Source: Sphingopyxis sp. MWB1
GTDB taxonomy: Bacteria > Pseudomonadota > Alphaproteobacteria > Sphingomonadales > Sphingomonadaceae
Direction of reading: 5' to 3'
Assembly: GCF_000763945.1 (NCBI RefSeq)
Contig: NZ_JQFJ01000002.1
Span: 310,001 to 374,000, forward strand
Length of the DNA stretch: 64,000 nucleotides
The position numbers and the translations under genes are program-made. The notes below the pieces were generated by a model. The model searched no databases. It worked only from the letters and a program-made list of their open reading frames with translations, and was not told where the DNA came from. This document shows, piece by piece, positions 20,244 to 51,832 of the stretch. Positions within the stretch are counted from its first letter, which is position 1. Each line of letters opens with the position of its first letter.

Positions 20244-20270
20244 TCAAAGCCCTTGAAAAAGGGCCGCGAC

Positions 20271-20914: not shown

Positions 20915-22590
<1,676 letters not shown>

Positions 22591-22594
<4 letters not shown>

Positions 22595-23049
22595 CGTTGG
22601 AGGCAGCAGGGACGGCTCCCATATCGGCGAGCGCGATCCGCATGGATGTGGCCGCGCTCAACGCCTTTATGGAGAATGCCTTCCCTGAGCCGCGCCCCGG
22701 CGCGCTTCCCTATGTCGTACAGGCCGCGCCCGGGCATGTGCAGGCCCGTCTCGACCCGGGTGACCATGCGCTGCGCCCCGGCGGCCTGATATCGGGTCCC
22801 ACGCAAATGGGCTTTGCCGATATGGTCGCCTATATGCTCGTTCTGGCTCACATCGGTCCAGTGGCCATGGCCGTGACCAGCGCGCTCAACTATCAGTTTT
22901 TACGCCCCTGTCGGCCCGGCCCGCTGTTCGCCGATGCTCATATGTTGCGCCTTGGCAAGCGGCTCGCCGTGATGGACGTGCGCATCTGGACAGAGGATGC
23001 CGCAAAAAAGCCCGTGGGGCAGGCCAATGTCACATATGCGATTCCATAG
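22591..23049 (+). CDS. PaaI-like hotdog-fold thioesterase
   Basis: 152 residues with the hotdog pattern GGLISGPTQMGFADMVAYML (central helix) and strands such as AVTSALNYQFLRPCRPGPLF. Family members hydrolyse acyl-CoA or aromatic-CoA thioesters; the substrate is not evident. The TTG start overlaps the ettA stop; ATG 22642 is an alternative start. It probably shares the ettA transcript. Confidence 0.82.
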
Positions 23050-31241: not shown

Positions 31242-32665
31242 TGGCCGGCGACAAGAAAATATTGCTGGTCGAAGATGATCCCGCGATTGCGATGATTATC
31301 CGTGAGACGCTTGCGGATGAATGCGCTGAGTTTGCGGCGGTGGCGACGCTTGCCGAACGCGATGCGTGGCTGGCTGAAAATCAGCCGGACCTGATCATCA
31401 CCGATGTCGTGCTGCCCGATGGAGACGGAATCGACTCTTTGGAGCGCGCGCAGCTCGCAGAAGAAACGCCGGTCATCATCCTGTCCGCCCAGAACACCCT
31501 AGATACGGCTGTGCGGGCGGCCAGCAGCGGCAGCTATGATTATCTGCCCAAACCCTTCGACCTTGCCGAGTTGACGGCCAGTGTTCGCTCATCCCTACGG
31601 CGAGGGAGAAATGTGCAGGCTGACGGGGCCGCCACTGTTGTGGCGGGCGACAGCCACGGGCTCGTCGGGCGCGCACCGGCGATGCAGGCGGTGTATCGCA
31701 CCATTGCAAGACTCGCATCCAACGATCTGGCTGTGTTGATTCTAGGGGAATCCGGCACCGGCAAAGAAGTGGTCGCCCGCGCCATTCATTCCACCGGGTT
31801 GCGCCGCAAAGGGCCTTTTGTCGCGATCAACATGGCCGCTATCCCGCGCGAATTGATCGAAGCTGAACTGTTCGGCCACGAAAAGGGCGCTTTTACCGGG
31901 GCGCATAGCCGCAATGCCGGGCGTTTTGAACAGGCGGCGGGGGGGACGCTGTTCCTCGATGAAATTGGCGACATGCCGCTGGAGGCGCAAACCCGCTTGC
32001 TGCGCGTGCTGCAGACCAGTGAATATTCGACCGTAGGTGGCAACCAGTCGCTTAGGGCCGACGTGCGGATCATCGCCGCCACGCACCGGGACATGCAGAC
32101 CCATGTCGCCGATGGCCGGTTTCGCGAAGATCTTTTCTATCGCCTGAATGTCATTCCGGTCACCTTGCCGCCGCTGCGCGAGCGACGCAGCGATATTGCC
32201 GCGCTGGTGGGTCATTTCATCGAAAACGGTCAAGCATCGGGCCTCCCTTCCCGACAATTTTCAGCGCAAGCTATGCAGTTGCTCGAACGCTATGATTGGC
32301 CCGGAAATGTCCGCGAACTGGGCAATATGGTGCAGCGACTAGTCGTGCTCTCACGCGACATGGTTGTCTCGGCCGATGAAGTGCGGGCCGTCCTTAAAGA
32401 TAGTAAAGAAGGCGAAGCAACGCTCGACCCTGCGGGCCAAATCCAGCGCGCGGTGGATGATTGGGCGCGCGACATGCTGGCAGGAACAGGGGCGGACGGA
32501 AAAATCCATGAGCAGTTGGAAGCCATCGTCGAGGCTGCGCTGCTACGCCGCACTTTGCGCGAAGTGGGGGGCAATCAGCTCGAAGCTGCGCGGCGACTGG
32601 GGATTAACCGCAACACATTGCGAAAACGGTTGGGACAGCTGGAGATCGACCCATCGGCGCCATAG
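31241..32665 (+). CDS. ntrC: nitrogen regulation response regulator NtrC
   Basis: Sigma54-dependent activator of nitrogen-assimilation genes, 474 residues. Receiver domain with phospho-Asp in DLIITDVVLPDGDG; AAA+ domain with Walker A GESGTGKE, the sigma54-contact loop GAFTGA and Walker [15 protein letters not shown]-terminal Fis-type helix-turn-helix (GNQLEAARRLGINRNTLRKR). ATG 31241 is preferred over an upstream in-frame ATG at 31187 because the receiver begins there and it overlaps the ntrB stop. Confidence 0.97.
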   Translation: MAGDKKILLVEDDPAIAMIIRETLADECAEFAAVATLAERDAWLAENQPDLIITDVVLPDGDGIDSLERAQLAEETPVIILSAQNTLDTAVRAASSGSYDYLPKPFDLAELTASVRSSLRRGRNVQADGAATVVAGDSHGLVGRAPAMQAVYRTIARLASNDLAVLILGESGTGKEVVARAIHSTGLRRKGPFVAINMAAIPRELIEAELFGHEKGAFTGAHSRNAGRFEQAAGGTLFLDEIGDMPLEAQTRLLRVLQTSEYSTVGGNQSLRADVRIIAATHRDMQTHVADGRFREDLFYRLNVIPVTLPPLRERRSDIAALVGHFIENGQASGLPSRQFSAQAMQLLERYDWPGNVRELGNMVQRLVVLSRDMVVSADEVRAVLKDSKEGEATLDPAGQIQRAVDDWARDMLAGTGADGKIHEQLEAIVEAALLRRTLREVGGNQLEAARRLGINRNTLRKRLGQLEIDPSAP

Positions 32666-32728
32666 AAGAGGCGGGCTGGTGCAGATTGTGTGTTTTCGCT
32701 GCAACAGCTTTGTCGTAAAGAGGCCACA

Positions 32729-35014: not shown

Positions 35015-36383
35015 TATTTTGATCGTCGATGACGAACGCGACATTTGCGATCTGGTCGCTGGGGTGATGGAGGATGAAGGCTATGAAGCCCGCACCGCAT
35101 CCAACAGCGACGAGGCGCTTGAGGCGATACGCCAGCGCCGCCCTTCGTTGGCGTTGGTCGATGTGTGGCTGCAAGGGTCGCGACTGGACGGTCTCGGCCT
35201 CGTTGAAGCGATCAAGGATTTCGATCCGACCCTGCCGATCATCGTCATTTCAGGTCATGGAGGCATTGATACCGCCGTGGCGGCAATCCGGCGGGGCGCC
35301 TTCGATTTTATCGAAAAGCCGTTCGAAGCCGAAAAACTGCTTCATCTTGTCGCGCGTGCGACGGAGAATGAACGGCTGAAATTTGAGTATGAGCAGCTTC
35401 GGGAAAAAGCAGGCCCCGCTGCCGAACTGACCGGTACCAGCGCCGCGATCAACAATGTCCGGGCGACGCTGAAGCGCGTGGCGGGAACGGGAAGCCGGGT
35501 GCTGATCACCGGGGATGCCGGGGTGGGCAAGGAAGTCGCCGCGCGTGTTCTCCATGGCTGGAGTGGCCGGCAATCTGCGCCTTTTCGAGTAATTTCGTCG
35601 GCCCGCATGGACCCGGAAACGGTTGAAATCGAATTATTCGGCGCCGAAGCCGATGATGGTTCCATCAGGGTGGGGCTTCTGGAACAGGCGCATGGGGGTA
35701 CATTATTCCTCGACGAAGTGGCGGATATGCCGCTGACGACGCAGGGTAAAATATTGCGCGTCTTGACCGATCAAAGCTTCACCCGGGTCGGGGGACGCAC
35801 CATGATCCGCGTCGATGTGCGCATTATTTCCGGTTCGGCGCGCGATTTGATGGCCGAAATCAGCGAAGGGCGGTTTCGCGAGGATCTCTACTATCGCTTG
35901 AATGTTGTACCGGTGCACATTCCGCCGCTGCGGGAGCGGCGCGACGATATCATCAGCCTGTGCGACCATTTCATCCATCGCTATGCCGCCGACCGGCGCA
36001 CAGCGCCACCTGAAATCAGCCATGAAGCCATGGCGGCGCTTCAGGCCTATGAATGGCCTGGAAATGTGCGCGAATTGCGGAATATGGTCGAACGCATCAT
36101 GATCTTGGCGCCCAGCGAGCGCCTGTCGCGTATCGACCTTGATATGTTGCCGACCGAACTGGTGCGCGGCGGGAACGAGATATTGCCCAATAATGAATCG
36201 ATCACGGCCATTCCGCTCAAGGAAGCGCGGGAAAATTTTGAGCGCGAATATCTGCGAATCCAGATTAGCCGTTTTTCGGGCAATATTTCCCGCACCGCGA
36301 CCTTTATCGGCATGGAAAGGTCGGCTTTGCACCGCAAGTTGAAACTATTGGGGCTTACCGAGAGTTCCGATCCAGAGAAATGA
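35004..36383 (+). CDS. ntrX: response regulator NtrX without GAFTGA loop
   Basis: 459 residues: receiver (phospho-Asp in [15 protein letters not shown]), AAA+ domain with Walker A-like [11 protein letters not shown] and Walker [14 protein letters not shown], and a C-terminal Fis-type HTH ([20 protein letters not shown]). Where NtrC has GAFTGA this protein reads [20 protein letters not shown], so the sigma54-contact loop is missing. It is therefore more likely a conventional DNA-binding activator/repressor. Preceded by the ntrY end, followed by hfq. Confidence 0.95.
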
Positions 36384-36498
36384 TGGCTTTATGCTAGACC
36401 TCTGGGAGGCTTTCCCGCATATTGCCCTTAAGACGGTGGGATATAAACGAAAAATCAATGCCATATCGCGGCTTTGCCGCCAAGAACAGGAGGCCAAT

Positions 36499-37005
36499 GT
36501 GTCCGATAAAAATCAGAATCTTCAAGATATTTTCCTCAACGCCCTTCGCCGTAGCAAGACGCCGGTTACGATGTTTCTTGTCAAAGGCGTAAAGCTACAG
36601 GGTATTATTACCTGGTTTGACAATTTTTCGTTGCTGCTAAGGCGCGATGGTCAGTCCCAGCTTGTTTACAAGCATGCGATTTCAACGATCATGCCGTCCC
36701 ACGACTTTGACCTCGCTTTGCTGGGCGATGCTGTCCACAATGCGCCGCCGTCAAAGGGTAAGGCGCTGCAGGACGTGTTTTTGAATGCGGTGCGCCGGTC
36801 CGAAGAATCCGTGACCATGTTCCTCGTCAACGGGGTGATGTTGCAGGGGGAAATTGCGGCGTTCGACCTGTTCTGCATGTTGCTGGAACGCGAACACCAG
36901 GTTCAGCTTGTATATAAGCATGCGATTTCGACCGTGCAGCCTAATGGTCCGGTCAACTTGCATGATAGCGGCGAAGCCGATGACGGCGATAGTGAGGCTG
37001 CCTGA
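36499..37005 (+). CDS. hfq: RNA chaperone Hfq with two tandem Sm domains
   Basis: 168 residues carrying two complete Hfq/Sm cores. Domain 1 (about 5-64): [20 protein letters not shown] through [11 protein letters not shown]. Domain 2 (about 83-142): [20 protein letters not shown] through [11 protein letters not shown]. Both keep the proximal-site QD..F and YKHAI motifs and the rim arginine pair. Hfq is normally a one-domain hexamer; a duplicated chain would form a ring from three chains, or stack rings. GTG 36499 has AGGAGG 6 bp upstream. Its position before hflX is the classic alphaproteobacterial order. Confidence 0.95.
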
Positions 37006-37039
37006 TCATTTTGACATTCTTACTTTGCGATAAAATTTC

Positions 37040-38401
37040 ATGATGGACGCCGTTGAGGAGGTGCGCCGAGGCGGCATCGCCTTGCTGATCATACCCGAAT
37101 GGCACGGGCAGGGATTGACGCGGTCGCTGGAGGCAAGGGCCGAAGAAGCGCAGGGGCTTGCCCTTGCCATCGGGCTGAAGGTCGCAGCGACCCACTGTCT
37201 GCGCCTGCGCCAGACGCGGGCGGCCACCTTGATCGGTGTAGGGCAGATCGAAACGATCAAACCTGCTGTGGCCGACAGCGGCGCGCAGCTCGTGATCGTG
37301 GACGCGGCGCTTAGCGCCATTCAGCAGCGCAATCTGGAAACCGAGCTGGGGGCCAAGGTGATCGACCGCACCGGGCTAATCCTCGAAATCTTTGGCGAAA
37401 GGGCCGCGACCGCCGAAGGGCGGATGCAAGTGGAACTGGCTCATCTCGATTATCAAGCCGGACGCCTTGTGCGGAGCTGGACCCACCTTGAACGCCAGCG
37501 CGGCGGTTTCGGCTTTCTCGGCGGCCCCGGCGAAACCCAGATTGAGGCGGATCGACGCATGATCCGCAACCGCATGGCGCGCATCCGCCGTCAGCTGGAG
37601 GATATGCGCCGCACCCGCCAGTTGCAGCGCAATAAGCGGCAGCGGGCGCCGTGGCCGGTAATCGCGCTTGTCGGTTATACAAATGCCGGAAAATCAACAT
37701 TTTTCAATCGTCTGACAGGCAGTGACGTCATGGCGGAGGATATGCTTTTCGCCACGCTCGACCCAACAATGCGGGAAATTCGGCTTCCCGGAATCGACAA
37801 AGCCATATTGTCCGATACGGTGGGGTTCGTCTCCGATCTTCCGACCGAGTTGGTCGCGGCCTTTCGCGCGACGCTGGAAGAAGTCACCACGGCCGACTTG
37901 ATCGTGCATGTTCGCGATATCAGCCATGATGATAGCGAAGCGCAGTATCGCGATGTCTCCTCCATTCTCGGCTCCCTCGGCGTCAATGACTGGGAAGAGG
38001 AGCAAGACGAGGGGGAAGGGGAGCAAAAGGGCGGCCCCATCCCGCAGATCGAGATATGGAACAAGATCGACAAGGTAAAAGGGGATAGCCGCGCAGCCGT
38101 GATGCAACAGGCAGCGAAACGAGATGACGTCGCCATCATCTCAGCCGGAACGGGCGAGGGGGTCGAGGACGCAAAGCGGCTGATAGCGACCGTTCTCACG
38201 ATGAATCATGAAATCGTCACCCTGTTGCTGGAACATGGCCAGGGAGATGCCATCGCTTGGCTTCACGCGCGCGGGGAAGTGCTGCGCGAGGAAACCCATG
38301 CCGCGGGGCAGTCTTTAACCGTCCGACTGGCGCCCGCTGACAAGGCACGCTTTCGGCGATTGTGGCCGGATGTCGAGACCTCAGAGGGGCGGGGCGGTTA
38401 G
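37040..38401 (+). CDS. hflX: GTPase HflX
   Basis: Ribosome-associated GTPase that splits stalled or heat-damaged ribosomes. 453 residues: N-terminal HflX domain with its glycine-rich linker (RGGFGFLGGPGETQIEADRR), then the G domain with P loop GYTNAGKSTFFN, DTVGFVSDLP (G3) and NKID (G4). An acidic insert (EEEQDEGEGEQKGG) sits before NKID. It overlaps the convergent mazG stop by 4 bp. Confidence 0.95.
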   Translation: MMDAVEEVRRGGIALLIIPEWHGQGLTRSLEARAEEAQGLALAIGLKVAATHCLRLRQTRAATLIGVGQIETIKPAVADSGAQLVIVDAALSAIQQRNLETELGAKVIDRTGLILEIFGERAATAEGRMQVELAHLDYQAGRLVRSWTHLERQRGGFGFLGGPGETQIEADRRMIRNRMARIRRQLEDMRRTRQLQRNKRQRAPWPVIALVGYTNAGKSTFFNRLTGSDVMAEDMLFATLDPTMREIRLPGIDKAILSDTVGFVSDLPTELVAAFRATLEEVTTADLIVHVRDISHDDSEAQYRDVSSILGSLGVNDWEEEQDEGEGEQKGGPIPQIEIWNKIDKVKGDSRAAVMQQAAKRDDVAIISAGTGEGVEDAKRLIATVLTMNHEIVTLLLEHGQGDAIAWLHARGEVLREETHAAGQSLTVRLAPADKARFRRLWPDVETSEGRGG

Positions 38402-39352: not shown

Positions 39353-39793
39353 TTACTGAAACACCTGCTTCAGCATCGTCAAAACGGCCTCATGCCCTTT
39401 TTCCTGAAGGCGTACGATGACCCGCCTTCGATCCAGCGGATCGGAAAAGCGCTCAATCAGCCCGGCTTCCTCTAGACGGTCGATGCGCCGAATAGCCGCA
39501 GCGGCGGATTCACCGGAACTGAGCATCAGCTGCTTTACATAAAGGATGCCGCCTTCTTCCTGCGCGACAAACAGCTCGAGGATCATATCCCAGGCGGAAT
39601 CGCGCAGAAGTCCTTTGGGAAGAAGCGCAGCCATCTTGTGACGCGCTTTCAGCAGATGGCGTGCGCCTTCGACGATTTGTCGTTCAGCGATCGTGCGATT
39701 ATTTTGCGCAGCTTGCGACAGGGAGGCGACCGTCCGCACGGCGGATGGTGAGTGTCGTTCGGCTGCATGGGTGTATTCACGGCGATAATACAT
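39353..39793 (-). CDS. MarR-family transcriptional regulator
   Basis: 146 residues. Winged-helix core: LYVKQLMLSSGESAAAAIRR (HTH), LEEAGLIERFSDPLDRRRVI (wing with the family's basic DPxDRR tip) and a C-terminal dimerisation helix. The start ATG 39793 has GGGGAA 5 bp upstream and lies 21 bp after the Mur-fusion stop, so it belongs to the adhesin-secretion operon. Likely an autoregulator of that cluster; its ligand is unknown. Confidence 0.88.
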   Translation of the reverse strand: MYYRREYTHAAERHSPSAVRTVASLSQAAQNNRTIAERQIVEGARHLLKARHKMAALLPKGLLRDSAWDMILELFVAQEEGGILYVKQLMLSSGESAAAAIRRIDRLEEAGLIERFSDPLDRRRVIVRLQEKGHEAVLTMLKQVFQ

Positions 39794-39814
39794 GATATTC
39801 CCCGTTCTGTTTCG

Positions 39815-42800
39815 TCATTGCGCGGTTTGCGACACACCCACTGTCGGCGGAACCGCTTGTCCTTTCTTCTCCTTTGCGTCGCCGATCATATCGGCGGTCA
39901 TTTTTAACCATTCGACCAGCAGGTGCACGGCGCTGCCATGCGATCCCTTGATCATCAGCAGATCTCCATCCTGAAGATCAGCCATAAGCGCTGCCTGTAA
40001 ATCGGTCAGGGCTTGCGCCCTCCCCCCTCGACATTCCTCAGGTAGCGCAGACCACAATTCATCATAAAGATTACCGACTAGATAAACTCGGTCGATTTTA
40101 TTTGCGCTTATCAGGGGGGCAAGGGCCGTGTGGTAAGTTTTTTCTTCGGTTCCCAGCTCCAACATCTCACCAAGAACAACGATTTTGCGGGCCGCATATT
40201 CTGCGCCGACGCGTGTGAGCGCCGCCGCCATTGATCCGGGATTGGCGTTATAGCTTTCATCAATCAGGCATATCTGGCGCCCGGACAGGTTGATATGCAG
40301 ATCGGCGCCCCGCCCTGCCACTGGCGCAAAATCGGCAAGAGCGCTAAGCGCCGCCTCGATCTCGTGCCCGGCGGCCCTCACCGCGGCGAGCGTCGCGAGG
40401 CTGTTGAGCGCCATATGTTCGCCGCGCGCGCCCAGCGCATAGTCATATTCTGCGCCAAAGACCGCGGCTTTCACGCGTCCGCTTGCCTGATCATAGGATA
40501 GCAGGCGAAAGTTCGCTTCGCCCGAGCGGCCATAATGGAGCACGTCTAGCCCATGCATTCGGGCTGCCATATGCACTTGTTCCCATTCGGCCATATCCCG
40601 ATTGAGGATAGCAACGCCGCCAGGAGACATTCCCTGGAAAATGGCGCTTTTACGGGCAGCAATTGTCGCCAGATCGCGATGATATTCCAGGTGAGCAGGA
40701 AGAATATTGGTGAAAATGGCAATGTCCGGACGCGCGAGCCGGGCGTTGCGCGCCATCCGTCCGATGGCCAGTTCCAGCACAATATGGGGGACCGACCAAG
40801 CGATGGATGCGAGATTCCACGCTATTCCATGGGGAAGATTGGCGTTGTGCCGGGTTTGACCTACCTCGCCATAAGCGCCCAGCGCGTGGGCCAGCATGGC
40901 AACGACCGTTGTTTTCCCAGCGCTGCCTGTCACGGCCAGCACCTTGCCCTGCATACGTGCGCGGGCATAACGACCCAGGGCCAGAACCGCATCGCCGCCA
41001 TTTGGCACGGCGAGCAGCGGAATATCGACACCCAATGCAGCAGGAGGCGGAGCGGGGGCGCGTTGTCGATCCGCAGCGACAATTTCGCTTTCTTCGCTTT
41101 CTACGACTGGGCCCCGACTGTCATCCTGTTCCGGCCTTCTCTCTTCGCTCGCCCCCGATCCCGCCGCATTATCGGGGACGATCAGCGCGGTGGGCGGGGC
41201 TGGCAGCCCCGTCAGGCGTTCGACGCTGACCCCGACCTGCCCCTCTGCCTGCCTTACGACAACCATGTCACCCGAACGCATGGTGACGGGCGCAATGCAT
41301 AACCCGGTCGCTCGCCATTCAGAGGGCGGTGTGCGCAACCAGAAGCCGCCGGTTGCACGCTCTACATCATCGGGGGTCCAATGATGGAAAGCCGTGGTTT
41401 CCCTATCCTCCGCGCCATCCGGGCGATGATCGTGGCCGGCCGCGGTGGAGAGTAAAAACTCCCGATAGGCAACCAACCCCGACAGATAATGTTCGACATC
41501 GTCGATACGGATACGAAATGCGTGATGGCGAATGAAGAAGCTGCCCTCGATCGCGTCCGGCCGCGCGAAAAACATTGCCAGTTCCGGCCAGAAATGCCCG
41601 TTCAGCAGGTAATTGGCGCGGTGGTGCAGTGCGCGATAGAAAAGATTAAGGTCAAAATCGCGCAGCAGATGTTCATGGGCGGGATCGTCCCGTATCCGTT
41701 CGATCATCCGGGCCGCCGCCATCATCAATTCGAGCAAGGTCGGGAAGGTGGTGATGCGCTCCAGCACAAAATCGAGATAGTCGCGGACATTGTCGAGCCC
41801 GAATTGATAATAGGTTTCGGACGGGTCATGTCGGGTGAGTTCGTTGATGCAATAGCTCAGCCAATGGTCATGGGTGCGCCAATGTTCCTCGCGCATGAAA
41901 TGGACGAATCCATTTTCAACGGCATGGAGCCAGCGCCGGTCGCCCGTGCGCTCAAACAACCGCATCAACGCGAAGGCGGCCTCGCCATCATAATAGATGG
42001 TGCGAAAAGACTCTTTCACGTCCAGCGCCGGATAGTTGAGCACATGGACGAAGCGTCCGCTCACATCATTTTGCATATAGAGGATGGTGCGGGCCAGTTG
42101 TTCGCACAAAGCCAGGTGCCGCTCATCGCCCGTTACTTGGCCATATTTGACCAGCGCCAGAATGGCGAGCGCATTGCCTCCCAGTTTAATTTCCCCGCCG
42201 CTATCGACCAGAAAGGCCGCGGCCTCTCCGCCCGGTAGCGGACCGCAATCCACGAGATGCTCGACCAGATAGGCGAGCGCACGGTCAATCGCCGCGTTCA
42301 AGACCTTATCGCGCGTCACCTCCCATGCTTCGATCATGGCATAAAGGCTGCTCGCGTGCCGCAGGCTGTTGTAAGCGGCAATCTCGCGATTGAAACAGGG
42401 ATGCCAGCCATAGCGAAACCGCCCATCCGGGCCGACCTGCCGCGCGAGGTAGCGGCTTCCCCGCTCGATCAGTTGCAAGCTCGAGTCCGCGTCGAGCGGA
42501 GGCAAGCTGCGCCTTCCGGCATTGAGACCCTTGCCGCTCAGCGCCTGGACATCGTCGCCGACGGCATGAAAGGCGCCGCGCGTGGTGAACAGCCATATGT
42601 CGCGCTTGCCATCAAAATCGACGCGCTCAATACCATGACGTTGGGCAGCATAGCGATTGAAATTCGCTTCATTGACCATCGCCGCCGCTTCGCGCGGGCC
42701 GCCATATAGCATGGCATTGCCGTTAAGCTCGGTCTCCAGAAAAGCTTGTTCAAATGCGGCATCAAGCGCAATGCCCAGTCGGAAATAGTTGCGCTTGACG

Positions 42801-43087
42801 TCCTTCAAGCGCTCGCGAAGCGCGTTCCAACTGCTTCGCTCGACCGCATCGACCCATTCGATGCGAAGCCAGCGCGCAGCGCCGCCTTCCTGCGCCAATT
42901 TCTCGGCCGCGCGTTGCCACGCGCTGTCAGCAGTTCCGCCAGTGACGGTCGCCACCTGCGCACGCTGCTCGCCATCGGTCCAGGACAGGAAAAGGACAAC
43001 CCGGCGGATTCCGCCCGTCACGACTGGCTGAACGGTGCCGAGAGCCTCGCGCATCGAAGCGAGGCGAAGGGCCAAATCCCTGGTCAT
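39815..43087 (-). CDS. alpha/alpha-toroid - MurF-like ligase fusion protein
   Basis: 1090 residues, two enzyme-like halves. Residues about 1-630 are helix-rich with repeated hairpins (YDGEAAFALMRLFERTGD, LGGNALAILALVKYGQVTGD), as in six-/seven-hairpin glycosidase or epimerase toroids; no catalytic set can be named. After a Pro/Ala/Glu-rich linker (about 640-690), residues about 710-1070 form a Mur ligase: VTGSAGKTT (P loop, about 716-724), TNILPAHLEYH, the lysine of ARKSAIF, DESYNANPGSM and VLGEMLELG. These match MurF more than CapB. No signal peptide. The ATG overlaps the hlyD stop (ATGA), tying it to the type I secretion operon. Substrate unknown; ligation of an amino acid or dipeptide by ATP is the family inference. 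Confidence 0.8.
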   Translation of the reverse strand: MTRDLALRLASMREALGTVQPVVTGGIRRVVLFLSWTDGEQRAQVATVTGGTADSAWQRAAEKLAQEGGAARWLRIEWVDAVERSSWNALRERLKDVKRNYFRLGIALDAAFEQAFLETELNGNAMLYGGPREAAAMVNEANFNRYAAQRHGIERVDFDGKRDIWLFTTRGAFHAVGDDVQALSGKGLNAGRRSLPPLDADSSLQLIERGSRYLARQVGPDGRFRYGWHPCFNREIAAYNSLRHASSLYAMIEAWEVTRDKVLNAAIDRALAYLVEHLVDCGPLPGGEAAAFLVDSGGEIKLGGNALAILALVKYGQVTGDERHLALCEQLARTILYMQNDVSGRFVHVLNYPALDVKESFRTIYYDGEAAFALMRLFERTGDRRWLHAVENGFVHFMREEHWRTHDHWLSYCINELTRHDPSETYYQFGLDNVRDYLDFVLERITTFPTLLELMMAAARMIERIRDDPAHEHLLRDFDLNLFYRALHHRANYLLNGHFWPELAMFFARPDAIEGSFFIRHHAFRIRIDDVEHYLSGLVAYREFLLSTAAGHDHRPDGAEDRETTAFHHWTPDDVERATGGFWLRTPPSEWRATGLCIAPVTMRSGDMVVVRQAEGQVGVSVERLTGLPAPPTALIVPDNAAGSGASEERRPEQDDSRGPVVESEESEIVAADRQRAPAPPPAALGVDIPLLAVPNGGDAVLALGRYARARMQGKVLAVTGSAGKTTVVAMLAHALGAYGEVGQTRHNANLPHGIAWNLASIAWSVPHIVLELAIGRMARNARLARPDIAIFTNILPAHLEYHRDLATIAARKSAIFQGMSPGGVAILNRDMAEWEQVHMAARMHGLDVLHYGRSGEANFRLLSYDQASGRVKAAVFGAEYDYALGARGEHMALNSLATLAAVRAAGHEIEAALSALADFAPVAGRGADLHINLSGRQICLIDESYNANPGSMAAALTRVGAEYAARKIVVLGEMLELGTEEKTYHTALAPLISANKIDRVYLVGNLYDELWSALPEECRGGRAQALTDLQAALMADLQDGDLLMIKGSHGSAVHLLVEWLKMTADMIGDAKEKKGQAVPPTVGVSQTAQ

Positions 43088-44271
43088 CGCTCGCGCAGCG
43101 CCTCGCGCGCTCGATTGAGCGGCTTGACCAGATATTGCAGCACCGTCTTTTTCCCGGTGTGAATGTCCACCGTGGCGATCATGCCGGGGACGATAGGAAA
43201 GCGCTTTCCTTCCTTGTTTACCAAGGCGTCCGAGCCGGTTCGCACAAAGACGCGATAATAATAGATTTCGGGCTGGACCTCGTCACGGATGGTGTCGGGG
43301 GAAATGGTCGTCACCCGCCCTTCCAGCCCGCCATAGATGGAATAATCATAGGCGGAGACCTTAACCGTCGCGCGCTGGCCTGGATGGATGAAAGCAATGT
43401 CGCGCGGGGAAATACGCGCTTCGATCATCAGTTGATCGTCCAGCGGAATGATTTCCATCAACTTGCCGTTGGGCGGGATCACCCCGCCCTTTGTCGATAC
43501 TTCGATGCTCTTGACCACCCCGCGCACCGGTGAGCGCAGGGTCAACCGCTCCAGAGTATCCGCGCGGCCGCGCACCACCGGCGCCAGTGCCTGCACCTCC
43601 TCATCGGCCTTGGCCAGTTGCTGCCGCGCCTCGACAATATATTGCGAGCGAAGGTCGGCTTTCTTGAGCTGAAGATCAGCATGCTGGCGTTTGAGCCGCA
43701 ATACTTCGACATTGCTGGCCGCGCCCACCTCGATCAGCGACTCGCCAATGGCCACTTCTTTGCGGATCAGCGCCAGCGATTCGTCGATAAGGCTCAGGGA
43801 GGATTGAAGACTGCGCCGCCGTGCTTCGAACAAGCGGGTTTCTTCGGCGCGCAGTTCGGGAAAATCATCAAGCTCATCGGAAAATTTGATCGCGGTCTGG
43901 TTGACCTCTGCGCGCAGCCGGGCCGATGCGGCAAGTGCTGCGCGATATTTGGCGGCGCTTTCCTCGACGGTCGAACCGGCCTGTGTCGGATCGAGCTGCG
44001 CCAATATCTGCCCCGGCTCGACGATCATATCCTGATGTACGAACAGCTTGGCCAATATCCCTCCTTCGAGCGACTGGATAACCTGCTCGCGTGAGGTCGG
44101 CACAACGCGCCCGTCGCCGGTCGCGACCTCATCAAGCTCGGCGAACCATGCCCAGCCAATGGCCGCTGCGACAAGCGCGGCCAGGAGCCAGATCATTCGC
44201 GCGGGGCCGGACAGAGTTTCGCTCGGGCCTGCGCCCAGCGGCCAATCATCGGATGGCGGCTGGTCGGTCAT
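43084..44271 (-). CDS. HlyD-family type I secretion periplasmic adaptor
   Basis: 395-residue membrane fusion protein linking the inner-membrane ABC exporter to TolC. One N-terminal transmembrane helix (about 28-45), a lipoyl-like half (DGRVVPTSREQVIQSLEGGI), a long coiled-coil hairpin (about 120-240), then the barrel region (LTLRSPVRGVVKSIEVSTKG, MIEARISPRDIAFIHPGQ) and C-terminal IVPGMIATVDIHTGKKTVLQ. It overlaps the ATPase and Mur-fusion genes by 4 bp each. Confidence 0.95.
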   Translation of the reverse strand: MTDQPPSDDWPLGAGPSETLSGPARMIWLLAALVAAAIGWAWFAELDEVATGDGRVVPTSREQVIQSLEGGILAKLFVHQDMIVEPGQILAQLDPTQAGSTVEESAAKYRAALAASARLRAEVNQTAIKFSDELDDFPELRAEETRLFEARRRSLQSSLSLIDESLALIRKEVAIGESLIEVGAASNVEVLRLKRQHADLQLKKADLRSQYIVEARQQLAKADEEVQALAPVVRGRADTLERLTLRSPVRGVVKSIEVSTKGGVIPPNGKLMEIIPLDDQLMIEARISPRDIAFIHPGQRATVKVSAYDYSIYGGLEGRVTTISPDTIRDEVQPEIYYYRVFVRTGSDALVNKEGKRFPIVPGMIATVDIHTGKKTVLQYLVKPLNRAREALRER

Positions 44272-46421
44272 GCCCCCCTCCCCTTGGCCTGCATGATTTC
44301 CAGCGCCTTGTTTTTCGGGGCATCGAGCGCGATCGCGCCATTTTGCACGACAAGAATGCGGTCGACCAGATCGAGAACCCGCATGCGATGGGTCGCGATA
44401 ATCACAGTACGATCACGACTCCAATCGCGAAAACGGTCGATGAAAAGCCGCTCGGCAGCCTCGTCCATTGCGGCAGTCGGTTCGTCGAGAAGCAATATGC
44501 GGGGCTGGCGGATCAACAGCCGGGCGAGAAGCAGCGCCTGTATTTGTCCACCCGACAGCCCCCTCCCCCCTTCCAGGATCATTTGCTCCAGCCCCTGGCG
44601 TGATCGGCGGATGAAATCATCGGCGCCGACCATCGCGACGGCTTCCATGATTTCCTCGGTTGTTGCCTGGGGCCGGCCGAGCAGCATATTCTCCCGAATG
44701 CTTCCGTGGAAAAGACGGCTTTGCTGGCCCAGCAACCCGACGTCCCGCCGAACATCCGATGGGTCGAGCTGATGGAGCGCGAAACCGTCAAGAAGGACTT
44801 CGCCGGACACCGGCTGAAGAAGACCTGAGCATGCCTGAAGCAGAGTGGACTTCCCGGCGCCATTGCGTCCGACAAGGGCGACTTTCTCTCCCGGCGCAAT
44901 GGTGAGGTCGGCCACGGTGAGGGCGGGCGGGGTCGACGGATCGCCGTAGCGAAAACTGGCGGCGCGCAGCTGGTAAGCGCCTTCGATCAGGGGGAGCTGG
45001 ATCCGATGCTCGTCATCCGGATCATCGACCGGCAGTGCCATGATCTGGTCGATGCTTTCCACCCCGATACGGGCATGTTGCAGGCGATTGAGCAGCTGCG
45101 CGACCTGGGAGACCGGCGCGATCATACGCGATCCCAAGATGGAGGCGGCAACCAGGACGCCGGTGGTGATGCGACCATCCATCACGAACGGAGCCCCGAC
45201 AAAGATGATGGCGGCATACACGCCATTCTGGACATTATGCGTCCACACCGTCAGGCTGTTCGTCAGTCCCCGTAGCCGTAAATGCGCCTCTGCAGTGGCC
45301 GCGTTGTAATGGTTCCACTGCTGCTGAAAACGCGATTCCGCCTGAAGAATCTTGATATCTTCATGCCCCTGCACGGCCTCGACGAGCATGGCATTGCGAA
45401 GCGACCCTTCGCGCATGGCTTCATTGGCAAGGGCGCGCAGCTTTCGCTGTGCCAGAAGGCCGGGGACGATCAAAAGGACAAGGGCCGCAAGCGGGATGAG
45501 CGCGAGCGGCCCGGCGATAAACCAGAAAATGGCAAGGAAAAGCAGAAAGAAAGGTATATCGACAAGCGCCGCTACGGTTGTTGAGGTCAACAGCTCGCGC
45601 ACTTGTTCAAGATCGCGTAGCTGCGCGATAAACGCGCCCGTTGACGTGGGCTTGTCTGAATTGCGCACGCGCAGGGCGTGGCCGAACACGCGGTCGGACA
45701 TGCGAAGGTCGGCGCGCTTGCCCAATATGTCGATCAAGCGCATTCGAAGCCGACGAAAGAGAAAATCGAAACCGATCGCCAGCAACACGCCCCCGAATAA
45801 AATGTAAAGCGTGGGCAGCGATTGGGCCGGGATAACCCGGTCATAAACCTGCATCGAAAAAAGAACCCCCGCCAGGGCCAGCGAATTGGCAACAAGCGAA
45901 GCGATAAGAACATGCCAATAAGCCCGCGCATCGCGAAAGAGGATACGCCGCAGCCAATGTTCTTCATAAGGGCGAATATAGGTATCTACCCGGGCGTCGC
46001 GCAGCATCCTGACCGGACGGGCTGCAATTAAACGCGCGGAGGCAGCGCACAAGGCCTCCAGCGTCATTTCATTGTCCTGCACTGCAGGGCCGCCCACCAC
46101 CGTCAGCCTTGCATGCCCATCAGAGGAGATGGAGCGGACCACGACCAGTCCCTCGCCGCCGTTTAACTCAGCGATGAAGGGCAGCCGCGCCACGGTCAGA
46201 AAACCCGGCTGCGCAGCGAGGAATTCGACGCGCAGCCCGATCCGGCGGGCCATCGCGCGAATACGATCGTCCCGCTCTTCTGATGGATGCCAAAGACTGG
46301 CGAGCTTTGAATTTTCAGCAGGGCCGGGCAAGCGATAATAGCGCGCTATTTCGCCAAGCGCCTCGACCCATTCATTGGCGGCGAACTCGTTTTCAGCCGG
46401 AAGGGGTGCACCTGTGCTCAC
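44268..46421 (-). CDS. type I secretion permease/ATPase (LapB/HlyB type)
   Basis: 717-residue ABC exporter half-transporter. An N-terminal C39-like domain (about 1-120) lacks the catalytic cysteine, as in exporters of large adhesins and RTX proteins where it only docks substrate. Six transmembrane helices follow (about 150-430), then the ATPase with Walker A VGRNGAGKST (about 515-524), signature LSGGQIQAL and Walker B RILLLDEPTAAMDE. GTG 46421 is chosen: it overlaps the tolC stop (GTGA) with GGGGGTGA upstream; the longer ATG at 46493 lies inside tolC. Confidence 0.95.
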   Translation of the reverse strand: MSTGAPLPAENEFAANEWVEALGEIARYYRLPGPAENSKLASLWHPSEERDDRIRAMARRIGLRVEFLAAQPGFLTVARLPFIAELNGGEGLVVVRSISSDGHARLTVVGGPAVQDNEMTLEALCAASARLIAARPVRMLRDARVDTYIRPYEEHWLRRILFRDARAYWHVLIASLVANSLALAGVLFSMQVYDRVIPAQSLPTLYILFGGVLLAIGFDFLFRRLRMRLIDILGKRADLRMSDRVFGHALRVRNSDKPTSTGAFIAQLRDLEQVRELLTSTTVAALVDIPFFLLFLAIFWFIAGPLALIPLAALVLLIVPGLLAQRKLRALANEAMREGSLRNAMLVEAVQGHEDIKILQAESRFQQQWNHYNAATAEAHLRLRGLTNSLTVWTHNVQNGVYAAIIFVGAPFVMDGRITTGVLVAASILGSRMIAPVSQVAQLLNRLQHARIGVESIDQIMALPVDDPDDEHRIQLPLIEGAYQLRAASFRYGDPSTPPALTVADLTIAPGEKVALVGRNGAGKSTLLQACSGLLQPVSGEVLLDGFALHQLDPSDVRRDVGLLGQQSRLFHGSIRENMLLGRPQATTEEIMEAVAMVGADDFIRRSRQGLEQMILEGGRGLSGGQIQALLLARLLIRQPRILLLDEPTAAMDEAAERLFIDRFRDWSRDRTVIIATHRMRVLDLVDRILVVQNGAIALDAPKNKALEIMQAKGRGA

Positions 46422-47755
46422 AAGATCACCCCCCTCACCCGCGATCCGGAAAGGCCATAGGCCTCGCGCTGTCGTCCCGCTGCATAGAGACACATTGCTT
46501 CCAAGCGGAGAATATCAAAGCGGATATGGACGAGATCGAAGCGAACCTGATGCAATTCCTGCTGTGCGTTCAGGAGATCGACGAGCGTACGGGTGCCCAT
46601 GTCGAGATATTGGAGGCGATATAAATGCCCGGTTTCCGACATGCTGGCCTGCCTGGCGGTCAAAGTGTCGATGACCTCACGCAGACTTTGAAGCTGTTGC
46701 CGCGCCTCGGCAAGCTGGCGGCCGATATCGTTGCGGACGCGGGCTTCGGCTGCGTCGGCTGCCCGCAGTCCATATTCTGCCTCGCGTGCCCGCGCACCAT
46801 AAGCCCCTCCGCTATAAAGGGGCGCGGAAATATTGAGGCCGATATTATAGTCATTGCGCCCGAACGGGTCGGTCAGGTTGCTCCCGCCGCCGCCGCGCAG
46901 CGCCAGCGTCGGCATCCGGTCCGCCCGGGCCCGGTCGCGTTCCGCGCGGGCTTCGTCGCGCTCCGCATGCGCCTGCATCATCGCGGGAATATCGTTCCAC
47001 TCAGGCTCGCCCCGTTCACATGCCCCGCGAAGGGGTGGGGGCGGGTCCTGGGCCAACTGTGGCGGTTCCGCCCTGCCCAGAAGATAGACCAAATTTGCTT
47101 CCCAGCGTTTCCGCTCAGCGCCGATTTCGCGAATGGAAACCTCTGCCGCTTGCACACGGGCTTGCGCCTGGAGCCAATCTGACTTGGTACTCGCTCCCAA
47201 ACGATAGCGGTGATGGACCAGATCGTTAATCTCGCCAATGCTCGCGAGCTGATCGCGTGCGACCCGTTCCAGTGCGCGCGCGCGTTGAATTTCAACAATG
47301 GCAAGGCTGGTGTCGCGCGCCAGAGCATCGACGGCCAGCAGGAGCGTTGCTCGTCCGATCCGCACGCCCGCCTCTGCCATCGCGACATCGCTTTTCAGCT
47401 TTCCGAAATCAAACAGCATTTGCGACGCGGATAATTCAGCGCGCGGGCGCCACCCTCCCTGTCCGATCGCGCCATTATATCCGGCGTTCAAACCGCCGCT
47501 GATCTGGGGGCGCCCCGCCGCCTCGGCGATCGAAATGCGCTCTTCGCGGGCCGAAAGGCGGGCAATAGCCTCCGTGACCGAAGGATGCCAGGCAACGGCC
47601 TCGCGAACCGCACCGTCCCAGCTTAGTTCACCGCTAGTCGGCGAAGCGCCAAAGGATGCGGAAGAGGTGGAGAATAAACCAAAGGAAGCCAAGGCCGAAA
47701 AGGCGATTGCCCGTGAAGACCAGCTATATTGCAGACGCCGTTGAAAAACCGGCAT
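46418..47755 (-). CDS. TolC-family outer membrane channel
   Basis: 445-residue outer-membrane efflux protein completing the type I secretion system. A signal peptide is seen (basic MPVFQRRL, hydrophobic core, cleavage near ASFGAS), followed by two OEP repeats; typical features are PSVTEAIARLSAREERISIA, IGRATLLLAVDALARDTSLA and the second-half LNISAPLYSGGAYGARAREA. ATG 47755 has GGAGGGCGA immediately upstream. It lies 93 bp after the adhesin stop, beyond a hairpin. Confidence 0.94.
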   Translation of the reverse strand: MPVFQRRLQYSWSSRAIAFSALASFGLFSTSSASFGASPTSGELSWDGAVREAVAWHPSVTEAIARLSAREERISIAEAAGRPQISGGLNAGYNGAIGQGGWRPRAELSASQMLFDFGKLKSDVAMAEAGVRIGRATLLLAVDALARDTSLAIVEIQRARALERVARDQLASIGEINDLVHHRYRLGASTKSDWLQAQARVQAAEVSIREIGAERKRWEANLVYLLGRAEPPQLAQDPPPPLRGACERGEPEWNDIPAMMQAHAERDEARAERDRARADRMPTLALRGGGGSNLTDPFGRNDYNIGLNISAPLYSGGAYGARAREAEYGLRAADAAEARVRNDIGRQLAEARQQLQSLREVIDTLTARQASMSETGHLYRLQYLDMGTRTLVDLLNAQQELHQVRFDLVHIRFDILRLEAMCLYAAGRQREAYGLSGSRVRGVIL

Positions 47756-47787
47756 TCGCCCTCCGCCCCTTGAGCTCCACATTACGA

Positions 47788-47817
47788 GTTCATCCGGACA
47801 ATGTGGACCGGATGAAC
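47788..47817. promoter_or_regulatory. intercistronic 10-bp perfect hairpin between adhesin and tolC
   Basis: GTTCATCCGG (47788-47797) and CCGGATGAAC (47808-47817) form a perfect 10-bp stem with a 10-nt loop in the 93-bp gap between the adhesin stop and the tolC start. No T-run follows on the minus strand, so it looks like an mRNA stabilising or processing hairpin, or a weak attenuator, rather than a full terminator. Confidence 0.65.
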
Positions 47818-47848
47818 CCGCTGGTATAGCTATTAGACTGGCGAAGGA

Positions 47849-50800
47849 TCAGATCATCGTTTGATGCGTTGAACCCAGATTATCCTCTGTATCAAATATC
47901 AAATATCCCAGTGAATCCTCCATAACGGGGGGGATTTCACTTTCGATTGGTTCGTCCTTCACAGTCCCCGGCACCGATCCGACGCCAGGATCTTCTTGTT
48001 CCCCTATTTTCAAATAGTTTTCAAGAAGATTTGCGTCCTCAACCGGCGCCTCGAACAAGTCGTAGGTGAGCGGCGCGGACGGTGCCAGGGCGATCTGCCC
48101 CAGCGGAGCTGGCGCATCCATTTCCGCCAACATGATGACATCGCCGCCGTCGGGGATCATCATCATCGCAGCGGCGGGCAGCGCCCCGCCCGGGTCGACG
48201 ACATCGACTGTCACCGTCAGCTCGCTTTGGGAAATCTCGCCATTGGGATGACGGATCTGATAGGCGAAGCTGTCGGTCAGGTCGACCGCTGAATAGGGCA
48301 GTGCCGGGTTCGGGACATAGGTATAACTTCCCGTCTCATCGATGGTCAGCGTACCATGCGCACCGACCAGCACCACTGGCGTGTCCCCAATTTCGGTGAA
48401 GCCGCCGCCGCTCTCGACCAGCACCGCGGTGAACAGCGAACCGGCGACATCATTGGCTAGCAGATTGCCCGAGGCCGAGGCGGTGGCATCCACTTCAAAG
48501 GCATTGAAGTTCGTGACAGTCTGCGTGAGATCGACATCGGAGGTAAAGCCGAGCGCGGGGCCCGCAGCCTGGACCGTGACCCGGTAATCACCGGGCGGCA
48601 ATGTGCCGGCATTGACTGTTACCTGTCCCAGTCCCCCTACACCGATCACAGCGGTCAGCGATTGGGTATGAACCACCGCGCTGGTCGCAATATTGGTGAC
48701 CGTGACCGTATAGGTCGGGACCAGTCCGCCGCTTGCCGTAATGTGGACGACGGCATTCGACTCGGTTCCTGCTGCAACCGAGAAGTTAGCATTGGCGGAC
48801 TGCGGCCCTCCCAAAGCCGGATTGTTTAGCGTCAACAGATCCGACGTGGATGTGCTGACTTGATGCTTGAAAAGGACACCGGCACTGACGGCATCGCTGG
48901 ATGCGACAAAGTCGATCGTTGCGTTGCTGCCGGGCGCACCCCAACTCAGCGCCACATCGGGGCTGCCGATCTGGATCGTGAGCGAGGCGCTTTCCTGAAC
49001 CCCGTCGGGCCGGGCAATCACATAGGTGAAGCTTTCGGCCTTGCCGATGTTCGCGGCATCGCTTCCCGGCGTATAGGTGTAGCTACCGTCGAGATAGATC
49101 ACCAGCGTGCCAAATTGTCCGGCCACAATGGTGCCGTCAACAATGACGTCGGTCGTTACACCATTGACGATGATGCTGTGCACGACGGTTCCTGCCGGCG
49201 CCAGGTCGGCATTCCCTTCGCCATCCACATCGGTGATCACATTGCCGCTGGCATTGATCGCGATGATGTTGGCGATGTCGGTATAATCGCTGTCGGTCCC
49301 GCTGACCGAAAGCTCGCCCAATATCCCAAGGCCGGCGACCCCTTCAAAGGCCATGAAGGCACGATATTCCCCGGCGCCCAGATCCTGCATGGCAGCAAGG
49401 TCGCCGCCCAGCAGTGAAACGTCGAGGAGGGTTGCCGTGCCGTTGCCGCCGACACCGACCCATTCGCCGTTGATCCGCTGTTGCAGAACAACGCGATAGT
49501 CGGAAGCCGCCCCTATATTGGCCAGCCCATTATATTCGAACAGCGCGTCCAATGTGTGGGATTGGCCAACGGTAAAGGTCACGGCACTGCTGAGATTGGC
49601 CGACAGATCAATGCTCGCGAGCGACAGCAACGCGACATAGGTATGGCTACCCAGGTCGACATTGGTTGTCGTCGGTATCAGATCGAGCGCGGCGTTATTC
49701 ACATCATCGACCGCATCGAACAGATCGGGCGCTACGCCCGTTCCGGGGAGCGAGACATTGCCTGTCGCATCGGCCTGAACCGCAGTCAGCGTTTCCCCGT
49801 TGGTACGGGCGGCAATGGTGATGCTGTAATTGCCGTCGCCATCGACGGTTCCGGTGCCAAGCACCGTAACCCCGTCGACATCGAAGATCGTCACCGTCGC
49901 GCCGATTTCACCCACTCCGGTAACAATGGTGCCGGTGAGACCGTCAATATCGATGGTCGGCGCATCGGGCGGGGTCAGATCGGGCGCGATGCCCGAGCCG
50001 GGCAGCGAGACATTGCCCGCCGCGTCGGCCTGAACCGCGGTCAGCGTTTCCCCGTTGGTACGGGCGGCAATGGTGATGCTGTAATTGCCATCGCCATCGA
50101 CGGTTCCGGTGCCCAGCACTGTAACCCCGTCGACATCGAAGATGGTCACCGTAGCGCCGATTTCACCAGTCCCCGTCACAATGGTTCCGGTGAGATCGTC
50201 AATATCGATGGTCGGCGCATCAGGCGGGGTCAGATCGGGCGCGATGCCCGTGCCCGGCAAGGAGACATTCCCCGCCGCATCGGTCAGCGTAACGAACAGT
50301 TCCTCGCCATTGATATGCGGCGGAATGTCCACGCTGTAATTGCCCTCGGCGTCCACATCGCCTTCGCCGATAATGGTGATGCCATCGGGCGCATAGACTT
50401 TCACCCGCGCATTGGCCTCGCCTACGCCACTGACCTTGGCGCCGGTCGCGACGTCAATAAAGACGCTCGGAGGTAGTGGCGGATCAACATCAGCGTCCGC
50501 ATCGGCGTCCGCATCAGCGTCTGCATCGGCATCAGCATCTGCATCGGCGTCCGCATCCGCATCAGCGTCTGCATCGGCGTCCGCATCCGCATCAGCGTCT
50601 GCATCGGCGTCCGCATCCGCATCAGCGTCTGCATCAGCGTCTGCATCGGCGTCCGCATCCGCATCAGCGTCTGCATCAGCGTCTGCATCGGCGTCAGCGT
50701 CAGCGTCGGCGTCTGCATCAGCGTCTGCGTCCGCATCAGCGTCTGCGTCTGCATCAGCGTCTGCGTCTGCATCCGCATCAGCGTCTGCGTCTGCGTCCGC

Positions 50801-51832
50801 ATCGGCGTCTGCGTCTGCATCCGCGTCTGCGTCCGCATCAGCGTCTGCATCGGCGTCAGCGTCTGCATCAGCGTCTGCGTCGGCATCAGCATCTGCATCG
50901 GCGTCGGCATCAGCGTCTGCGTCTGCATCCGCATCAGCGTCTGCATCGGCGTCCGCATCGGCATCGGCGTCAGCGTCGGCATCAGCATCTGCGTCGGCAT
51001 CAGCGTCTGCGTCTGCGTCCGCATCAGCATCTGCGTCGGCATCAGCGTCTGCGTCTGCGTCCGCATCAGCGTCTGCGTCTGCATCCGCATCAGCGTCGGC
51101 ATCAGCGTCTGCGTCTGCGTCGGCGTCCGCATCGGCGTCAGCGTCGGCATCAGCATCTGCGTCGGCATCGGCGTCCGCATCGGCATCGGCGTCAGCGTCG
51201 GCATCAGCATCTGCGTCGGCATCAGCGTCTGCGTCTGCGTCTGCGTCTGCGTCCGCATCAGCGTCGGCATCAGCGTCTGCGTCTGCGTCTGCATCCGCAT
51301 CGGCGTCAGCGTCTGCATCTGCGTCGGCATCCGCATCTGCGTCCGCATCGGCGTCGGCATCAGCGTCCGCATCACCATCGTCTGGTGGCGTCCGGGGCGC
51401 CGGGCTTCCTCCGCCTCCACCGGCGGCGGCTGCAAGCCCCCCTGCTCCTAGCGCGCCGAGAGCGGGCAACAGAAACCCGCCGGCTCCACCGCCTTCACCT
51501 GCGGGTGCCAGGGCGGAACCGGGTACAAATTCACCCCAGTCGACGACCTCATAAAAATCGGTGCCGGGACGGGCGAGCCACATGCTCCCGTCCGATTCCT
51601 GAAGGATCAGGTCGTTCGTAATCTCGTCGGGATTGTCGGTATAGAAATTGGCAATTCGGATCGTCTCGCCCGATTTCAGGTGCACGACAAGGTCATTGCC
51701 TTGTTGCTCCAGCCTCGCCACCGCATCACGGCTCAATTGCAAGCGTACGACGCTTGGCGTTTCAAGTGTGATCTGGTCCAGCGCGACGGCTCGTGCTTCA
51801 CCCGTTGCTTTGTCGAAAATTTCCGCCGACAT
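47849..51832 (-). CDS. BapA-prefix giant surface adhesin with Asp-Ala repeat, T1SS substrate
   Basis: 1327 residues. A BapA/Bap/LapF prefix-like domain (about 1-110: [37 protein letters not shown]) is followed by a Gly/Ala-rich hydrophobic stretch (about 118-145), then residues about 154-448 that are strictly alternating Asp and Ala. Three Ig-like (Big) domains follow, two nearly identical, and then VCBS/cadherin-like modules ([40 protein letters not shown]). The acidic C-terminus fits an uncleaved type I secretion signal; no RTX nonapeptides or N-terminal signal peptide are seen. ATG 51832 has AGGGGGA 6 bp upstream; a frame from 51913 exists without support. Probable biofilm or cell-surface adhesion. 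Confidence 0.9.
49724..50233 (-). repeat. two 255-bp tandem repeats encoding Ig-like domains
   Basis: Copies at about 49724-49978 and 49979-50233 (exact 255-bp spacing, differing at scattered positions) each encode an 85-residue Ig-like domain beginning [14 protein letters not shown] third, more divergent domain lies upstream in the protein. Recent duplication is likely. Confidence 0.85.
50489..51373 (-). repeat. 885-bp hexanucleotide-type repeat encoding (Asp-Ala)n
   Basis: 295 consecutive codons alternate Asp (GAT/GAC) and Ala (GCN), that is Asp followed by about 147 Ala-Asp pairs. Wobble positions vary, so the DNA is a degenerate 6-bp repeat with larger units: a 30-bp unit is exactly repeated at 50551-50580 and 50581-50610 and nearly so at 50611-50640. 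The reverse strand reads Ser-Ala repeats, which I regard as a shadow. Confidence 0.95.

Follow-up and report, generated by a model that had tools for sequence, protein, structure and literature searches.

A NT-MID–MurF-like fusion protein encoded in a Sphingopyxis adhesin operon, a candidate modifier of Asp-X dipeptide repeats

The 64,000-nucleotide stretch of Sphingopyxis sp. MWB1 analysed here (contig NZ_JQFJ01000002.1, positions 310,001 to 374,000; hereafter the window) carries on its minus strand six genes transcribed in the order bapA, tolC, ATP-binding cassette (ABC) transporter gene of the LssB type, hlyD, Mur fusion gene and marR. They encode a type I secreted adhesin with a long Asp-Ala repeat together with a 1090-residue protein that combines a MurF-like ligase with an N-terminal part of no Pfam family, and our comparisons suggest that this protein belongs with Asp-X repeats and may modify them. 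Profiles and reading frames place all six genes, the 1090-residue fusion included, where a preliminary description of this DNA had put them, and the coordinates bear out its 4-bp overlaps at three junctions (tolC/ABC, ABC/hlyD and hlyD/Mur) as well as the start of marR 21 bp past the Mur stop codon. The features are as follows.

47849..51832, minus strand: BapA-type type I secreted adhesin, 1327 residues from the ATG at 51832 (BapA_N PF22783, 1.3e-23; NF045619, 1.6e-105; Big_6; Big_9)
51913 (GTG start), minus strand: longest bapA frame, 1354 residues
51542..51823, minus strand: BapA_N prefix domain, residues 31-124 of the 1354-residue frame
50492..51373, minus strand: (Asp-Ala)147 repeat, the proposed substrate
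48203..49576, minus strand: GNV C-terminal region of large adhesins (NF045619, residues 780-1237)
46418..47782, minus strand: TolC-family outer membrane protein (TIGR01844)
44268..46421, minus strand: LssB-type ABC transporter of a type I secretion system (TIGR03375, 759 bits, cut-off 693)
43084..44271, minus strand: HlyD-type membrane fusion protein (TIGR01843)
39815..43087, minus strand: NT-MID-MurF-like fusion, 1090 residues
42548..43087, minus strand: NT domain, residues 1-180, no Pfam family, border to MID approximate
41408..42547, minus strand: MID domain, residues 181-560, predicted (alpha/alpha)6 barrel, fold like cellobiose 2-epimerase and GH76
41168..41380, minus strand: reduced MurF N-domain-like segment, residues 570-640, from the predicted model and Foldseek; sequence matches begin after it
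40379..40933, minus strand: Mur_ligase_M with P-loop TGSAGKTT and Lys813
39938..40270, minus strand: Mur_ligase_C with SYNANP
39353..39793, minus strand: MarR-family regulator, also present in a congener without the Mur gene

Above their cut-offs stand the profiles for TolC (TIGR01844), LssB (TIGR03375), HlyD (TIGR01843), BapA (NF045619 and NF033677), Mur_ligase_M and Mur_ligase_C, and with a BapA prefix, a GNV C-terminus, an LssB-type ABC transporter, HlyD and TolC the locus has the full set of a BapA/LapA-type adhesin operon. The motif AAGGGGG lies just upstream of the bapA ATG at 51832; the ABC start was taken as the GTG at 46421, which gives the 4-bp overlap with tolC, the longest ABC frame beginning at 46493. 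A scan for promoters and terminators found no promoter-like site upstream of bapA on the bapA strand.

In the adhesin, the BapA prefix is followed by 147 perfect Asp-Ala units, immunoglobulin-like repeats and the GNV C-terminus. Along the repeat, the two Asp codons and the four Ala codons are all in use, in mixed order, so that (Asp-Ala)147 is not a fresh 6-bp DNA repeat and what is kept is the protein sequence; a microsatellite at the DNA level, considered as a candidate, is ruled out for the window by this codon use. Conservation in relatives shows it to be more than chance. The 148 aspartates of the preliminary description become 150 in our count of residues 178-476 of the 1354-residue frame (235 in the whole frame), the Asp-rich stretch itself being confirmed. 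The only reactive side chain of Asp-Ala repeats is the Asp carboxylate, and carboxylates are what Mur and ATP-grasp ligases activate. A second, weak BapA_N match of the same genome, below the cut-off and in a 3277-residue frame (G000:C2:1155694, locus L058), has no DX run (defined as at least 10 Asp-X units) within the stretch fetched.

The fusion protein is composed of an N-terminal domain and an (alpha/alpha)6 barrel, together called NT-MID and without a Pfam family, and of a MurF-like ligase whose N-domain appears reduced. Pfam, applied to the window protein, places nothing but the two Mur domains above cut-off; for residues 1-565 the window member yields no family match and the 37 aligned members give no more than scattered weak ones (best 0.0028), and an NT-MID profile found nothing significant among the sequences of the PDB (best 0.018). 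The predicted model of residues 1-565 has a mean predicted local distance difference test score (pLDDT) of 92.7, and its MID barrel resembles cellobiose 2-epimerases and GH76 enzymes in fold only (template modelling score by target up to 0.65): by sequence, the window member falls into neither the AGE epimerase nor the GH76 family, GH76 reaching 0.0063 at best, in 9 of the 37 members. Many His, Glu, Arg, Asn and Asp residues of MID are invariant in the alignment. Identity to the window protein is 47-70% across the 36 relatives, which belong to the alpha-, beta- and gammaproteobacteria and were mostly found via shared peptides, a route that favours close relatives.

For the ligase part, Foldseek ranks MurF first, and the full-length model (mean pLDDT 81.8, predicted template modelling score 0.53) shows the segment 570-640, a disordered linker and the Mur middle and C-terminal parts. 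These two domains are present with an intact P-loop, Lys and NANP, which we take to be the catalytic landmarks of Mur ligases. Profile matches start only at MurF residue 73-76, the model giving the reduced segment 570-640 for the N-domain, and the curated MurF cut-offs are not reached (TIGR01143, 232 of 288.6 bits; NF010693, 291 of 544 bits). Cyanophycin synthetase can be set aside, as there is no ATP-grasp match and a score of 29.7 of 850 bits, and so can SdgA/SdgB, the window protein having no glycosyltransferase domain. The host genome has five other Mur_ligase_M matches, which all cluster between 980 and 1001 kb on contig C2; with the other Mur genes grouped far away, the fusion is an extra, separate ligase.

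With what does NT-MID travel? To judge from gene neighbourhoods, its partner is the Asp-X dipeptide repeat and not type I secretion in itself, the link to secretion being secondary. Our sample consisted of 37 NT-MID loci including the window, 34 from a first scan and the own genome plus two more from a set of 99 relatives. A DX run, either (DA)n or (SD)n, is present at 32 of them; the five others are L025 (at a contig edge), L026, L031 (on a 10.8-kb contig), L039 and L045, in whose genome a different contig (L046) carries BapA_N with (DA)n behind it. A survey of relatives for co-occurrence of the Mur fusion with type I secretion genes, as the preliminary description had proposed, yields strong ABC and HlyD neighbours like those of the window at 19 of the 37 loci, counting L045 (contig edge, HlyD only), or at 21 with the weaker L040 and L041. 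Its further claim that the Mur gene is translated in lock-step with secretion genes holds in the window, through the hlyD-Mur overlap, but not as a general rule, because the Mur gene is opposite in orientation to the secretion genes at six loci (L010, L013, L015, L017, L018 and L028). At Limnobacter-type loci TamA/TamB neighbours take the place of the secretion genes, and a dedicated link between type I secretion and Mur was rejected, since NT-MID persists without such a system there and in Staphylococcus and Listeria. Two other neighbours recur beside NT-MID: an alpha/beta hydrolase-like protein (L011 13123-14250 and relatives) and a family of about 320-360 residues without Pfam match (c19; L026 13766-14839 and relatives).

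Whole genomes give a consistent picture. NT-MID is patchy, occurring in 3 of the 99 relatives including the own genome, and BapA_N occurs in 11; the three with NT-MID have (DA)n right behind BapA_N, and the other eight, which lack NT-MID, showed no (DA)n in the stretch fetched. Among 398 genomes of the phylum, 35 have BapA_N (28 with a match over the cut-off), of which 30 were examined at one locus each, the weak G108, G112, G137, G167 and G476 being left out. G000 and G264 have both a DX run and NT-MID, 27 have neither (eight of these had further BapA_N matches outside the count), and G195 has NT-MID and a sub-cut-off BapA_N match, with no run. Relatives and phylum taken together, a DX run lies near BapA_N in 4 of 5 genomes with NT-MID versus 0 of 35 without (Fisher 5e-5, phylogeny ignored). 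The association extends beyond BapA_N: strong NT-MID matches occur in 14 of the 398 phylum genomes (weak partial matches in G135 and G180 excluded), and the SdrC profile at 1e-10, which may miss short DX repeats, matched 22, nine of them with a DX run. The eight genomes with a DX-repeat protein by this profile all lie within the 14 (hypergeometric 2e-13, or 2e-12 with the ninth run, phylogeny again ignored). G159, the ninth, was rejected as a counter-example, its DX run lying in a non-gene frame, a 149-residue stretch in a repeat open in several frames. Within the class, NT-MID was found among 385 genomes in the own genome and as two weak matches, and it was not found in the 71 genomes of family f19.

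A further comparison is offered by G024, a genome of the same genus, in which bapA (64% in the N-part), tolC, the ABC gene, hlyD (83%) and marR (69%) follow one another as in the window. There is no (DA)n in its BapA and no NT-MID in the genome, and 146 bp lie between hlyD and marR. As far as gene content goes, G024 is a natural deletion, in which the repeat and the Mur gene are jointly absent from an otherwise equal operon.

NT-MID is found fused to diverse modifiers: a MurF-like ligase, PGA_cap plus Mur, an SdgB/SdgA-like glycosyltransferase, PGA_cap plus glycosyltransferase, a methyltransferase, or a YheCD-type ATP-grasp domain. The MurF-like ligase is mostly accompanied by DA repeats and the SdgB-like glycosyltransferase by SD. 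It also occurs without a fused modifier (L034, L041, L093, L171, L173 and L186), in some loci with a separate Mur gene adjacent. The SdgB/SdgA-like domains score far below the curated cut-off (L032, 4e-63, 213.8 of 800 bits; L033, with PGA_cap, 7e-65, 219.5 of 800). In the family of G264, 12 of 149 genomes have NT-MID; of the 11 new ones, nine revealed a DX run in the stretch fetched initially and G502 became the tenth once more sequence had been fetched; L172 opens at a contig end, at the place expected for the adhesin. With partner types assigned by hand, both here and for the tree below, Ser makes up at least 0.6 of the X positions in 12 of 13 glycosyltransferase loci and at most 0.38 in 26 of 29 Mur loci (Fisher 5e-7, phylogeny ignored), and G502 (Ser fraction 0.87) and the Klebsiella locus L184 (glycosyltransferase, about 0.95-1.0) fit this match of partner and repeat. 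In a tree built from 63 NT-MID rows, three changes of partner and seven of repeat are seen, with two independent pairs on supported branches; the match between partner and repeat rests on two to three independent switches.

Several loci add domains to this set. Behind the ligase, L010 and L013 carry S11 D,D-carboxypeptidase domains in which SxxK, SxN and KTG are recognisable by eye, a weak hint that D-Ala-D-Ala may be added and then trimmed; in L018 and L170 the S11 domains look degenerate. PGA_cap is fused with NT-MID and/or the ligase or glycosyltransferase, according to Pfam, in L022 (9842-14683), L033, L040 and L170; a portion of this domain in L022 and L033 gives a match, below cut-off, to the profile of the lasso-peptide epimerase MslH. 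In L027, the neighbour of an NT-MID-methyltransferase fusion (7128-13249) is a LapA-retention-module protein whose repeat mixes DA and DS.

A plasmid collection contained NT-MID matches in 54 records, of which eight were chosen for examination. Seven have DX runs, from Sulfitobacter, two Agrobacterium, Klebsiella aerogenes, Staphylococcus haemolyticus, S. lugdunensis and Listeria; the adhesins of Staphylococcus and Listeria are cell-wall-anchored. Across these records the type of adhesin varies and the Asp-X repeat stays in seven of eight. S. haemolyticus and S. lugdunensis each have the adhesin, NT-MID and a Mur gene, annotated in pieces in S. lugdunensis (L183), and Agrobacterium L187 has ATP-grasp matches and no Mur match. 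The Staphylococcus and Listeria NT-MID proteins (L182, L183, L186) are named poly(glycerol-phosphate) alpha-glucosyltransferase in their records. A tblastn search with the SdgB-like domain found no match in these three, and three proteobacterial stand-alone NT-MID proteins had no Pfam match when scanned; the name was probably carried over from fused forms. Near the NT-MID-Mur gene of the Sulfitobacter plasmid L180 lie, at 6854-9736 and 16580-22952, genes for a type I polyketide synthase and for two proteins with condensation domains.

How might such a protein act on an adhesin? We envision a scenario whereby the 1090-residue protein is a cytoplasmic enzyme whose NT-MID part would recognise, or act first on, the long Asp-X stalk, and whose MurF-like part would activate the side-chain carboxylates of the stalk with ATP and couple them to an amino acid or short peptide through its amino group, after which the modified chain would be exported via LssB, HlyD and TolC. 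By analogy alone, the purpose might be to shield or de-charge a protease-prone polyanionic stalk, comparable to the glycans on staphylococcal SD stalks. Because the same core stands beside Asp-X adhesins in other bacteria, the enzyme probably decorates the stalk, and we hold the scenario as a whole, modification of the Asp-X stalk by a cytoplasmic enzyme before export, to be reasonably likely. Its parts differ in strength: the Asp-X repeat is very probably the substrate, and amidation of its Asp side chains is a fairly plausible reaction. MurF joins D-Ala-D-Ala; that this dipeptide or a trimmed form of it is the added group, as the kinship with MurF and the fused D,D-carboxypeptidase domains of two relatives might suggest, appears rather doubtful. 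The earlier supposition that the ligase acts on the adhesin, perhaps on its aspartates, gains comparative support from the co-occurrence with Asp-X, the joint loss in G024 and the modifier swaps, the chemistry being what we infer.

Several observations weigh against this reading. L026 and L039 lack a DX run in more than 20 kb of sequence, as does the Acinetobacter record L185, with NT-MID and Bap-like repeats, in 21 kb; Listeria L186 has an LPXTG protein, NT-MID and DA, and no Mur match in 21 kb. Six of the 14 NT-MID genomes of the phylum have no DX protein by profile, four of them 76-84% complete and two, G172 and G220, listed as 100%. Partner and repeat are mismatched at L169 (glycosyltransferase with DA), at L019, L023 and L082 (Mur with SD) and at L183 (Mur gene, Ser fraction 0.68), and with only two independent supported pairs their match is consistent but not significant after phylogeny.

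Alternatively, NT-MID may itself modify the repeat, with the Mur part confined to making a small amide-linked precursor for attachment by NT-MID or by another protein. NT-MID is indeed the constant element and exists without a fused modifier, MID has its many invariant polar residues and the fold of sugar-acting enzymes, and some relatives have ATP-grasp, PGA_cap, hexapeptide, alpha/beta hydrolase and S11 parts, within the protein or nearby, that together resemble a small pathway. Yet relatives carry, in the position of the Mur part, domains akin to glycosyltransferases that work directly on repeat adhesins. This suggests that the repeat is the target of the fused part itself, and we regard the alternative division of labour as unlikely, if worth keeping in mind. 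It is also conceivable that the adhesin is anchored by a modified peptidoglycan or lipid precursor supplied by the MurF-like part, an idea of which a version the preliminary description had entertained. Although the nearest solved relatives are MurF and the S11 domains of L010 and L013 would suit it, the N-domain appears reduced, the genome has its separate Mur group, relatives replace Mur by a glycosyltransferase or ATP-grasp domain, and the core follows the repeat, not BapA; this cell-wall alternative finds little support and seems to us improbable. Finally, the patchy distribution, the plasmid copies and the close proximity of most pairs could reflect a cassette that moves with certain large adhesins without any functional link. 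This is very improbable given that G024 lacks repeat and gene jointly in an otherwise equal operon, that the pairing recurs in Bacillota with another adhesin type, and that repeat and core lie on separate contigs both in G132, with 15 kb or more between them, and in the draft G402, where NT-MID is 2 kb from the contig end and the two may thus be neighbours.

The stalk-modifying scenario has partial precedents. SdgA and SdgB glycosylate SD repeats and shield them from proteases, as described in sections of PMC3794999, and SdgB modifies DSD peptides, according to parts of PMC8561734. They resemble the system described here in that a dedicated enzyme gene stands beside surface adhesins with Asp-X repeats, and relatives of the window protein fuse SdgB-like domains to NT-MID, mostly with SD; unlike SdgA/SdgB, the window has an amide ligase in the place of the glycosyltransferase, an Asp-Ala repeat without hydroxyl and the added NT-MID core. 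In CphA1, a Mur-like domain adds Arg onto Asp side chains, as reported in excerpts of PMC9262961. The window protein shares with CphA1 a Mur-like ligase domain, which in CphA1 joins an amino acid to the side-chain carboxylates of poly-Asp, and its relatives share the ATP-grasp domain, whereas the window protein reaches 30 of 850 bits and the backbone of its proposed substrate is ribosomally made. In sequence and in fold the ligase part matches MurF best, and it keeps P-loop, Lys and NANP; it differs in its sub-cut-off scores, an apparently reduced N-domain and a gene far from the genome's other Mur genes. BapA of Paracoccus denitrificans is a type I secreted adhesin that has 891 Asp-Ala repeats and is required for biofilm; its apparent size on gels is too large, and the authors could not exclude modification, as passages of PMC5588039 relate; the main text of that paper mentions no Mur gene. 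The passages found in PMC13235738 likewise mention no Mur ligase, and a search for literature pairing a Mur ligase with type I secretion or adhesins, with subscription journals mostly outside its reach, found nothing relevant.

If the stalk is modified as proposed, the long Asp-Ala and Ser-Asp repeats of biofilm adhesins would acquire a function, the anomalous gel size of Paracoccus BapA a possible explanation, and peptide-ligase chemistry would join the repertoire of bacterial protein modification; NT-MID would be defined as a family that lacks a Pfam model and is labelled glucosyltransferase in some Gram-positive records. A broader proposition, which on present comparisons we consider evenly balanced, is a new class of protein modification in which a Mur-type ATP-dependent amide ligase, steered by NT-MID as a new recognition module, would turn the Asp residues of ribosomally made (Asp-X)n stalks into side-chain amides, perhaps Asp-beta-D-Ala-D-Ala, in a cyanophycin-like manner and with swappable ligase, glycosyltransferase or ATP-grasp modules from Proteobacteria to Staphylococcus.

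Before the 3' end of the operon, the plus strand of the window (31187-38401) encodes an NtrY-like kinase, two sigma-54 response regulators, Hfq and HflX, which are apparently unrelated to it.

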